Assembly (NCBI RefSeq): GCF_003752025.1 | Contig: NZ_RJKR01000005.1 | Coordinates: forward strand, 248,001 to 312,000 | DNA: 64,000 nt | From: Curtobacterium sp. PhB115 | GTDB lineage: Bacteria > Actinomycetota > Actinomycetes > Actinomycetales > Microbacteriaceae | Reading direction: 5' to 3' | Part shown: piece after piece, positions 8,872 to 27,280 of the stretch | How the letters are laid out: each line of letters begins with the position of its first letter | Numbering within the stretch: position 1 is the stretch's first letter | Made by a program: the position numbers and the translations under genes | The notes under the pieces: generated by a model | Told to the model about the DNA's origin: nothing | Database searches by the model: none | The model's input: only the letters and a program-made list of their open reading frames with translations

Positions 8872-9119
8872 GGTGGTCTCCTCGTGGTTCGTCGGCGCTG
8901 GTGCTCATGGGTGATCCCGTCCGCAGCGGACCGGTTCACGGGTCGTGCTCCCTCACGAGTGGTGGTGTGGCGACTGGTCTACCGGTCCGCCCGAACGCGG
9001 GGCACCACCCGGATCGGGCGATCTGCGCGACACGGCGGCGGAGATCACCCGATCCGGATGGCGCATCGCCCGGACCACCAGGCAGAGGCTGGGCCGATCG
9101 ACGAGGGGATGACGAGGCG
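8872..9119. other. Divergent intergenic region before the giant surface protein
   Basis: Separates the minus-strand permease from the plus-strand surface protein gene. It contains an inverted repeat, CCGGATCGGG at 9009-9018 and CCCGATCCGG at 9048-9057, which could be an operator or an mRNA leader hairpin. No additional gene was recognised. Confidence 0.5.
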
Positions 9120-15078
<5,959 letters not shown>

Positions 15079-15104
<26 letters not shown>

Positions 15105-15369: not shown

Positions 15370-15397
15370 GCCGCGATCGTACGGCGGCGGACCTCGC

Positions 15398-15508
15398 ACG
15401 GTGCGAGGTCGCCCGCGACACGGTGCGAGGTCGCCCGCGACACGGTGCGAGGTTCCGCGCACCGTGCAGCGGCTTTCGCCCCGCACCGTGTTCGGAACCT
15501 CGCACCGT
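15398..15508. repeat. Intergenic hairpin/tandem repeat of CGGTGCGAGGT type
   Basis: A 22-base unit (positions 15398-15419) is repeated exactly at 15420-15441 and begins again at 15442. The last partial unit (15442-15457) pairs perfectly with 15493-15508, giving a 16-bp stem. The stretch lies upstream of the DUF1905 gene and of the LexA box and carries no coding sequence. Confidence 0.8.
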
Positions 15509-15603
15509 AGGACGTCCCGCCACCGCCCGCGCTCGGGGCTGACCCGACACGCCCAGCACGTCCACATCGCGCGCCGATCGCACGCGGCCGACTTGACTGC
15601 CGT

Positions 15604-15619
15604 TCGAACACACGTTCGA
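15604..15619. promoter_or_regulatory. LexA (SOS) box
   Basis: TCGAAC-ACAC-GTTCGA is a perfect match to the actinobacterial LexA operator TCGAAC-N4-GTTCGA. It ends eight bases before the GTG at 15628 and overlaps a possible -10 element (TCGAAT, 15616-15621), so LexA would directly block transcription. Confidence 0.9.
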
Positions 15620-15627
15620 ATACCGTC

Positions 15628-15933
15628 GTGGGACGGCGTCGCGAGAACCGGTGGCAGCCCCCGGAGCACCCGGAGGTCGAACGTCCGCGCGCCTACTCGC
15701 TGTCCGACGACGCCCGGGGGCCCGACGTCTGCCACGCGGTGACGCCGGTGCCGGTCTGGGCATGGATCCAGTTCCCGACCTTCCACGTCCGCGTGAAGGC
15801 CTTCGCGAAGAGCTGGACGCGCGACGCCGTGCTCGTCGAGTGGGCGCAGTTCGGGCAGCAGGCCGAGGCGTGGGTGTGGCGATCGGCCGTGAAGCACCGG
15901 ACCCTCCGGAGTCCGCAGAACGCATCGCGTTGA
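15628..15933 (+). CDS. Small protein, probably SOS-induced, function unknown
   Basis: 101-residue basic, Trp-rich protein (WIQFPTFHVRVKAFAKSWTRDAVLVEW, then QAEAWVWRSAVKHR). There is no signal peptide or membrane helix. No ribosome site precedes the GTG; the -10-like TCGAAT ends six bases upstream, so the mRNA is probably leaderless. The LexA box directly in front implies induction by DNA damage. The family is not recognised, and the usual mutasome genes (imuA', imuB, dnaE2) are not next to it. Possible roles are a DNA-damage accessory or DNA-binding protein, by inference from regulation only. Confidence 0.72.
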   Translation: MGRRRENRWQPPEHPEVERPRAYSLSDDARGPDVCHAVTPVPVWAWIQFPTFHVRVKAFAKSWTRDAVLVEWAQFGQQAEAWVWRSAVKHRTLRSPQNASR

Positions 15934-16035
15934 CTTCCGGCCCACGCCCGAGGATCGTTCAGTGAACAGCGGTTCGGCAAGTAACTCACTGATCGAGGCA
16001 TTCGGTCCCGGGTGCCGTGACCGTGAGGAGGCACC

Positions 16036-16188
16036 ATGAAGAACGCAGCGGTGCCGTCCTGGGTCGCCCACGTGCTCACCCCACCCGAGGTCATCAGCGC
16101 CTACGTCGAGCGGCGGGTCAACGATCCCGCCCTCCTCTCGGGGGAGCACACGGAGCCCACGTACGCAGATTTCCTGCGCGACGAGTAG
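16036..16188 (+). CDS. 50-residue hypothetical protein
   Basis: Encodes MKNAAVPSWVAHVLTPPEVI and continues to an acidic end (YADFLRDE). A strong GAGGAGG ribosome site at 16025-16031 sits five bases before the ATG, and a good terminator follows directly, so it is very likely expressed. No known domain is seen; the hydrophilic helix-prone sequence suggests a small cytoplasmic protein. Confidence 0.62.
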   Translation: MKNAAVPSWVAHVLTPPEVISAYVERRVNDPALLSGEHTEPTYADFLRDE

Positions 16189-16199
16189 GCGGTCTTCCT

Positions 16200-16247
16200 G
16201 GAGGCCCGGATCACGTTCCGAACGGACGGAACGTGATCCGGGCCTCC
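16200..16247. terminator. Bidirectional terminator
   Basis: A perfect 20-bp stem (16201-16220 with 16227-16246), extended by one pair on each side, with a six-base loop. It lies between the 50-residue gene and the convergent EamA gene. Confidence 0.88.
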
Positions 16248-16254
16248 TCTTCGT

Positions 16255-17112
16255 TCACGGGGTCGGTTGGGCACGTCGGCGTCGCGCCGACAGCGTCACG
16301 CCGACGCTCGCGGCGGTGACGCACGCCAGCGCGACGGTCTCGAGCACCGACAGTCCCTCGTGCAGCACGACCAGGCCGGCCAGCGCGGCGATCGCCGGGC
16401 CGAGGCTCTGCAGCACGCCGAACACCCGGGTCGGCATCCGCCGGAGCGCGAGCATCTCGAGGGCGTACGGCAGGACGCTCGACAGCACGGCGACGGCGCC
16501 GAAGACGACCAGGAGCACCGGCTCGCGCACCACGCCGTCGACCGCGGCGGGCAGCCCGAACGGCAACGACACGAGCATCGCGACCACCATCGACACCACG
16601 AGTCCGTCGACGCCGGGGATCGCCGCACCCACGTGCCGGTTCATCACGATGTAGCCCGCCCAGCACGCCGCGGCGAGCACGGCCCACACGACGCCACCGA
16701 CCTCGGTGACGGCGGACGGTCCGACGCCGAGCAGGACCACCCCGGCGAGCGCCAGCACCGCCCACAACGCGTCACGCCACCGGCGGGTGTGCACGAGCGA
16801 CAGGGCGAGCGGTCCGAGGAACTCGATCGTCACCGCGACCCCGATCGGGATGCTCGCGAAGGACAGGTAGATGAAGACGTTCATCCCGCCGAGCGCCAGC
16901 CCGAGGCCCACGGCGCCGAGCCACTGCGCGCGGGTCCAGTGCCGGACGCGTGGCCGCACGACCAGGGCGAGGACGATCGCGCCGATGACGAGCCGGAGCG
17001 TGGCGGCGCCCACGGCGCCGACGTCGTCGAAGTGGGTCTTGGCGATCGCGGCGCCGAGCTGCACGGACACCATCGCGGTGAGCGCGAGCAGCGGCGCGGG
17101 GACGCGGTTCAT
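16255..17112 (-). CDS. EamA/DMT family exporter, RhtA-like
   Basis: 285-residue inner-membrane protein with ten predicted helices and two EamA repeats. The sequence LGGMNVFIYLSFASIPIGVAVTIEFLGPLALSL in the first half and LPYALEMLALRRMPTRVFGVLQSLGPAIAALAGLVVLHE in the second are characteristic of the RhtA branch that exports threonine or homoserine. Its ATG overlaps the stop of the response regulator gene (ATGA), so it is translated with, and possibly regulated by, the adjacent two-component system. Confidence 0.88.
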   Translation of the reverse strand: MNRVPAPLLALTAMVSVQLGAAIAKTHFDDVGAVGAATLRLVIGAIVLALVVRPRVRHWTRAQWLGAVGLGLALGGMNVFIYLSFASIPIGVAVTIEFLGPLALSLVHTRRWRDALWAVLALAGVVLLGVGPSAVTEVGGVVWAVLAAACWAGYIVMNRHVGAAIPGVDGLVVSMVVAMLVSLPFGLPAAVDGVVREPVLLVVFGAVAVLSSVLPYALEMLALRRMPTRVFGVLQSLGPAIAALAGLVVLHEGLSVLETVALACVTAASVGVTLSARRRRAQPTP

Positions 17113-26775: not shown

Positions 26776-27280
26776 TGCGACGAACGGCGCCGTGATCCGC
26801 GACTGCACCCCCGCCGATCTCGACGTCGTGCACGCACTGCACGTCGATGCCGTCCTGCACTCCACCGCCATCTGGCAGGAGGAGCCGCACCCGCGCCCGT
26901 ACTTCGACGCGTGGCTCACCGAGCGCCGGGCCGACGGGTACCCGGTCGTCGTGGCCGAGGTCGACGGGGTCGTCGCCGGGTACGCGACGTACTCGCAGTG
27001 GCGGCCGCACCAGGGGTACCGGCTCACCGTCGAGCACAGCGTCTACGTGGTCGAGTCGTTCCGCGGCAGGGGCATCGCCTCGACGCTGATGCGGGCACTC
27101 GTCGAGCAGGCGACCGCCGAGGGCCGGCACGTCATGATGGCCGGCATCTGCAGCACGAACACCGGGTCGATCGCGCTGCACGAGAAGCTCGGGTTCGCCA
27201 CGGTCGCGGTCGTGCCCGAGGTCGGACGCAAGTTCGACCGCTGGCTCGACCTGACGCTCATGCGCCTGCCCCTCGTCTGA
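26762..27280 (+). CDS. GNAT acetyltransferase, phosphinothricin/methionine sulfoximine N-acetyltransferase-like
   Basis: 172 residues. The acetyl-CoA site VEHSVYVVESFRGRGIASTLMRALVEQA has the Q/RxxGxG/A pattern (RGRGIAS). The block CTPADLDVVHALHVDAVLHSTAIWQEEP near the N-terminus and GICSTNTGSIALHEKLGFATVAVVPEVGRKFDRWLDLTLM at the C-terminus are typical of the PAT/YncA branch. The substrate is probably an amino-acid analogue such as methionine sulfoximine (inference). It is controlled from the promoter shared with the XRE-cupin gene. Confidence 0.9.
   Translation: MTTAYATNGAVIRDCTPADLDVVHALHVDAVLHSTAIWQEEPHPRPYFDAWLTERRADGYPVVVAEVDGVVAGYATYSQWRPHQGYRLTVEHSVYVVESFRGRGIASTLMRALVEQATAEGRHVMMAGICSTNTGSIALHEKLGFATVAVVPEVGRKFDRWLDLTLMRLPLV

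Follow-up and report, generated by a model that had tools for sequence, protein, structure and literature searches.

A small tryptophan-rich gene of Curtobacterium sp. PhB115 lies directly behind a perfect LexA operator, and its layout and conservation make it very probably a LexA-repressed, leaderless SOS gene. Its product may be a small adaptor in damage tolerance, perhaps in translesion synthesis, but this assignment is tentative and stands somewhat below an even chance. Taken whole, the reading of the locus as a LexA-repressed leaderless SOS gene for a small damage-tolerance adaptor is about evenly balanced. Positions below are those of the window, the whole stretch of 64,000 nucleotides that was analysed. 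The features of the locus are as follows.

15593..15598, + strand: -35 element TTGACT, read from the sequence
15604..15619, + strand: LexA operator (SOS box) TCGAACACACGTTCGA, a perfect match and the sole one in the window
15616..15621, + strand: -10-like TCGAAT, putative, overlapping the right half of the operator
15628..15933, + strand: open reading frame (ORF) of 101 aa with 7 Trp and a GTG start, a Trp-rich SOS family protein, predicted leaderless
16036..16188, + strand: companion ORF of 50 aa, whose core motif is found downstream in 37 of 41 orthologous loci
16200..16247, + strand: terminator-like hairpin with a 20-bp stem, computed

The stretch GACTTGACTGCCGTTCGAACACACGTTCGAATACCGTCGTG consists of the LexA-type palindrome at 15604-15619, eight bases, and the GTG at 15628. 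The half-sites and centre of the box read TCGAAC-ACAC-GTTCGA, a perfect palindrome, and the spacer between TCGAACACACGTTCGA and the GTG is ATACCGTC (8 nt). The original prediction, made from the letters of the sequence, had described an exact SOS operator eight bases before the GTG of a 101-residue Trp-rich ORF with no ribosome site, and all of this was borne out; by eye, no purine-rich ribosome site was seen before the GTG. One perfect box occurs in the 64-kb window against 0.0011 expected from base composition, and six occur in the 3.97-Mb genome against 0.07 expected on the same basis. Imperfect sites are also over-represented: the window holds 14 with two mismatches or fewer (4.4 expected from shuffles), and the genome holds 68 with at most one mismatch, against three for the reversed pattern. 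This excess perhaps comes from base composition, and therefore the case rests on the conservation and the position of the box. A LexA-like site with one mismatch, TCGGACGCAAGTTCGA, is found at 27222-27237, and such sites are frequent in this genome. Just upstream of the SOS gene, at 15390-15510, several direct and inverted copies of ACGGTGCGAGGT can be recognized by eye.

The promoter is less clear-cut than the operator. TTGACT, a 17-nt spacer, TCGAAT and then 6 nt to the GTG fit a transcription start on the GTG itself. This was also the original proposal, and its spacing stands; its -10 element, in contrast, is weak. TCGAAT matches the sigma-70 -10 at four of six positions and lacks the A at position 2, and a strict sigma-70 scan of 15500-16300 reported no promoter, so the transcription start given here is a deduced one.

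Orthologues were collected by one scan of species genomes, which gave 42 loci (41 orthologues and the paralogue L043); the name Curtobacterium is carried by 40 of these records. In every one of the 41 orthologues a box precedes the start codon, at 8 nt in 37 and at 9 nt in four, and it is perfect in all except L044, which has one mismatch. TTGAC is kept in 40 (L041 lacks it), with 5 nt (27 loci) or 6 nt (13 loci) between the end of its hexamer and the box. From that hexamer to TCGAAT there are 17 or 18 nt, and from TCGAAT to the start codon 6-7 nt, and transcription should therefore begin on the GTG. The operator and the AT that follows it are near-invariant across the 41 loci, while most flanking columns drift. 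Judging from the coding sequences, the protein is under purifying selection, because pN is 0.050 against a pS of 0.348 (pN/pS 0.14; 820 pairs of the 41 sequences, first 91 codons).

Downstream of the SOS gene, about 100 nt away in the window, lies the 50-aa companion ORF, followed by the hairpin, which is a strong one. The core motif of the companion was found within 1.5 kb downstream in the 37 loci listed above, and in 25 of them the companion starts 98-118 nt after the first gene; the two may be co-transcribed. A purine-rich stretch lies ahead of its ATG (ORF at 16036-16188). The companion was found in three of 120 Microbacteriaceae genomes, all of the window's genus, and no LexA box was found in the companion loci L227-L229. 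Two weaker paralogues lie elsewhere in the genome, at C2:624227 and C1:853251. On the other side of the SOS gene, at 8901-15104, a 2067-aa ORF has the look of a surface protein by its sequence: it contains repeated domains and a stretch rich in Pro and Thr, and its C-terminus bears LAFTG and then a hydrophobic tail. None of the 41 orthologous loci yielded the LAFTG motif.

The box was then followed into the divergent relatives of the protein. Family members were clustered at 90% identity, and a box with no more than two mismatches was sought in the 200-nt stretch upstream of the barrel. The 64 clusters comprise six of the Curtobacterium type, 57 others and L087, which runs off its contig and was dropped; 12 members lacking the anchor motif, left out of an earlier count, are included in the repeated count given here. 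All six Curtobacterium-type clusters have the box, and so do 36 of the 57 others, against 9 of 495 control stretches from the same loci. In most boxed clusters the start codon follows the box by 3-21 nt. In L118, L122 and L124 a perfect box even spans the ATG (TCGAAC-ATGN-GTTCGA), so that the operator encodes the first codons. Among the 21 distant clusters without a box at this threshold are second copies whose genomes also contain another member (e.g., L002 and L089), a copy on a Curtobacterium flaccumfaciens plasmid (L132) and several strongly diverged members. Conservation of both protein and box in relatives had been proposed as a test of the idea, and the idea passed it. Long ORFs and near-matches to TCGA-rich palindromes are both plentiful in high-GC genomes, and a chance palindrome before a spurious ORF could be imagined on that ground. 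Since box and ORF are conserved, as seen in the 41 orthologues, the low pN/pS and the distant clusters, this explanation is refuted to the point of being extremely improbable.

The rest of the genome gives the box its company. The five other perfect boxes stand ahead of recA, the imuA'-imuB-dnaE2 genes (two boxes), a radical SAM gene of the Rv2578c type and a second small gene. Among these, dnaE2 and the radical SAM gene score above NCBIfam cut-offs, imuB was recognized by Pfam IMS, and recA and imuA' were named by eye. The genome thus holds a recA-like ORF behind a perfect box as well as lexA, which lies at C1:132020, scores above its cut-off and has a two-mismatch box upstream (read by eye). 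The 16 bp of the window box recur unchanged before the small gene on C2 and in reversed form before the radical SAM gene on C5, and the recA and imuA' boxes share the half-sites of the window box. The order of box, some 8-10 nt and a possible start codon is also seen at imuA' and at the radical SAM gene. In Streptomyces venezuelae, the experimentally determined LexA motif is tCGAAC-N4-GNNCGa, and the targets named in the consulted part of that report include recA, dnaE2-dinP and a radical SAM protein (PMC9380542). To the extent that sequence can tell, the window box is part of this genome's LexA regulon. The usual mutasome genes had been described as not adjacent to the gene; indeed, about 56 kb of the same contig separate it from imuA'-imuB-dnaE2. 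The idea that a small protein lies between imuB and dnaE2 in Microbacteriaceae was considered and rejected, since imuB adjoins dnaE2 here. The second small gene (L065:3725-4019; C2:371725 in the genome itself) is likewise Trp-rich and stands behind a box identical to that of the window. Compared with DUF6504, it gave 31.6% in hhalign over 24 columns only, in its first part, and no Pfam match.

Neither Pfam nor NCBIfam gave a match to the protein itself, even at E values of up to 1. Its wider family is marked by a variable N-terminus and a core of P-V-x-A-W ... W-T-x-x-A-V ... A-W-V-W-x-S-A-V, and for the three to five members tested no match above cut-off was found in Pfam, NCBIfam, PHROGs or PADLOC (the last returned nothing for three members). 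Divergent relatives turned up in sequence and profile searches: 95 of 398 Microbacteriaceae genomes have them, some in several copies, and so do 58 genomes, out of 396 from the order, that fall in eight family groups. A draw across the phylum gave a match in one of 396 genomes, the window's own; it says little about distribution, because relatives listed from the order went without a match in it and 12 first-look candidates per genome were scored. PhB115 carries a second family copy, without a box, at C1:78249 (L002). Another Microbacteriaceae genome (G115) has five family matches, of which at least one copy (L089) lacks a box. On the Curtobacterium plasmid pC1c, L130:4632-5285 holds two divergent members, each with a two-mismatch box before its start.

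Plasmids are a frequent home of the family: tblastn found relatives in 30 plasmid records with the window protein as query, in 50 with L092 and in 46 with L134. The original suggestion of a stand-alone DNA-damage gene is supported as to the conserved box and protein; the gene is not a lone one, however, and belongs to a family with mobile copies. From the sequences, this is probably a mobile, unnamed family of DNA-damage-response proteins. A different account would make its primary role one in the mobile element, such as helping plasmids or prophages to restart replication, to become established or to tune the SOS response of their host, with a domesticated copy in Curtobacterium. The plasmid records obtained with the window protein and L092, the patchy and sometimes multiple occurrence in Microbacteriaceae, and copies near ssb, ParA and NrdH genes speak for it. 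On the other hand, the Curtobacterium-type copy is present in the 10 same-genus genomes among the matches listed, the box is common to chromosomal and mobile copies, which points to the host damage response as their common factor, and tblastn with the window protein gave no match in 50,697 phage records. We consider this account unlikely. Six relatives were found on viral contigs. A phage origin was rejected, since four of these matches lie about 0.3-0.7 kb from a contig end and may be host DNA flanking a provirus; of the other two, L192 has no box in the scanned stretch and L193 is partial.

The neighbours of the plasmid copies provide the link to damage tolerance. In 25 of 26 plasmid records of Arthrobacter, Pseudarthrobacter and Paenarthrobacter, a DUF6504-like gene directly follows the family gene (the exception is AP018698.1), and an overlap of 4-29 nt between the two was seen in the six loci that were read. 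These 25 records are not independent, as some of the plasmids are closely related. The neighbour matched DUF6504 (PF20114) at 98.2% in hhalign, while a single-sequence Pfam search stayed below threshold (E 0.05); three of the more distant DUF6504-like plasmid matches are annotated as DUF6504. Counted in reverse, the family gene stands beside the DUF6504-like gene in 25 of the 53 plasmid records that have the latter. NC_019331.1 has a partial family match about 3 kb from its DUF6504-like gene, and the remaining records gave no family match at E 0.001 with L092 or E 0.01 with L134. This reverse count slightly lowers the odds both of a role in tolerance and of the broader reading as a mobile translesion accessory. 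DUF6504 itself matched in 32 of 99 genomes of the order. A DnaE-type gene lies within 1.5 kb of it in 24 of 30 loci (four are cut by a contig end), where "DnaE-type" is used because the fragments beside DUF6504 score alike against DnaE1 and DnaE2. A LexA box lies upstream of DUF6504 in 19 of the 30 loci, against 13 of 231 controls.

SRAP (HMCES-type) genes lie 7 nt downstream of L121, divergent to L152 and about 2 kb from L134, and ssb, NrdH and ATP-dependent ligase genes are further plasmid neighbours of relatives, with ParA genes near some copies; L136 and L148 look like the same plasmid. No imuA', imuB or dnaE2 was found by phmmer, which may miss a divergent ImuB, in 20 regions around relatives. 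In 80 genomes picked from the 398 Microbacteriaceae, two or more PF07733 hits occur in 40 of 40 with the family and in 36 of 40 without it; DnaE2 is near-universal, and its co-occurrence is therefore uninformative on a mutasome role. The role of a damage-tolerance adaptor is a tentative one drawn from gene association. A broader version, in which unnamed, mobile, LexA-controlled Tudor-like adaptors work with DUF6504 as an accessory of DnaE-type translesion machinery on chromosomes and conjugative plasmids, is rather unlikely as it stands.

AlphaFold2 gave the 101-aa protein a mean pLDDT of 80.6, with block means of 89-96 over residues 21-90, a confident five-stranded barrel at residues 35-90 and a low-confidence N-terminus; a relative at 35-36% identity has a similar, less confident barrel. 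Structural comparison ranks Tudor domains highest, with a Z of 6.8 and an rmsd of 2.1 over 58 residues; among the top rows for the relative is one with a Z of 6.0 and an rmsd of 1.4 over 48 residues. No related sequence of solved structure was found. Because such Z values fall in the range of common arrangements, only a predicted Tudor/SH3-like shape is claimed, and neither membership nor ligand.

Small, lineage-specific SOS genes are often inhibitors of growth or division, and this counts for the view that the gene encodes an SOS-regulated growth or division inhibitor, a checkpoint protein like SulA, YneA or DivS. Ranked by E-value, the Foldseek list is headed by ZapC, which binds FtsZ, at a non-significant E of 0.38. 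The missing Pfam and NCBIfam matches, the predicted barrel, the presence of several copies in one genome and on many plasmids, and the DUF6504-like neighbour genes all argue against such an inhibitor, and we regard it as improbable. We think just as little of a real box serving a stress role outside repair, for example RNA or protein binding by the Tudor-like barrel. It is true that the fold matches include Tudor, PWWP and integrase C-terminal barrels, whose ligands vary, and that LexA regulons include metabolic genes, according to the portion of PMC9380542 consulted; however, DUF6504-like, SRAP, ligase and ssb genes stand beside some relatives, with the reverse count of 25 of 53 as the background for such neighbours.

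For the preferred reading, a LexA-repressed gene for a damage-tolerance adaptor, we infer LexA binding, induction, the transcription start and the role in tolerance, and events would run as follows. LexA on the box would cover the -10 element and the start of the transcript and lie against the start codon, and the gene would be repressed. Cleavage of LexA, set off by RecA filaments, would let RNA polymerase initiate at the GTG itself or one or two bases from it, and on the resulting leaderless mRNA the ribosome would begin directly at that codon. A leaderless mRNA has been documented for lexA of Mycobacterium tuberculosis, in the part of the report available (PMC2897130). The Tudor/SH3-like adaptor might then, along with DUF6504-type partners, help a translesion polymerase assembly of the DnaE-type/ImuB kind. 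On the broader reading, as a mobile accessory of translesion machinery, incoming plasmids could add to the damage tolerance and mutagenesis of their host. With this locus, the probable SOS response of an actinobacterial order gains a protein family that has no name yet, along with a testable partner. According to the consulted text of PMC10421592, more partners of the mycobacterial mutasome are still being looked for, and comparative genomics puts forward a candidate through the DUF6504 link. An operator in contact with the start codon of a leaderless gene, or lying across it, is also a simple layout, and its effect on repression and on translation start could be measured directly.

How, then, does the locus compare with known systems? 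Small genes under LexA control are in themselves nothing new. The open-licence literature searched yielded no account of this protein family, of its distribution and mobility, or of its start-codon geometry; nor, as judged from titles and abstract openings, did it yield one of LexA control in Curtobacterium or Microbacteriaceae, or a paper on DUF6504. With Tudor/SH3-like barrels (SGF29, TDRD3, PHF1 and the C-terminal domain of retroviral integrase) the protein shares a predicted five-stranded barrel, but identity is about 12-22% and the Z values are those of common arrangements. DUF6504 (PF20114) is likewise a small Trp-rich protein with an upstream box at many loci, and adjoins the family on Arthrobacter-group plasmids; it is nevertheless a separate family, as hhalign gave 0.2% between the two and Pfam no match. 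With the ImuA'-ImuB-DnaE2 mutasome the gene shares the same kind of control, and the tie runs only via DUF6504-like genes near DnaE-type genes; unlike the mutasome genes, it lies outside their cluster here, and the Pfam and NCBIfam searches at E up to 1 gave no homology to ImuA', ImuB or DnaE2. A possible parallel to the plasmid copies, likened by gene description only, is the pair pvnz_37140-37135 on an S. venezuelae plasmid, in which a LexA-controlled gene with a hypothetical product precedes one for DNA polymerase IV, as given in the consulted part of PMC9380542. The Actinomycetota LexA/SOS regulon is the closest relation, with the operator TCGAAC-N4-GTTCGA and, in this genome too, recA, imuA'-imuB-dnaE2 and the radical SAM gene; the consulted part of PMC9380542 makes no mention of this protein family, and what sets most boxed family members apart is an operator placed close to, or across, the start codon.
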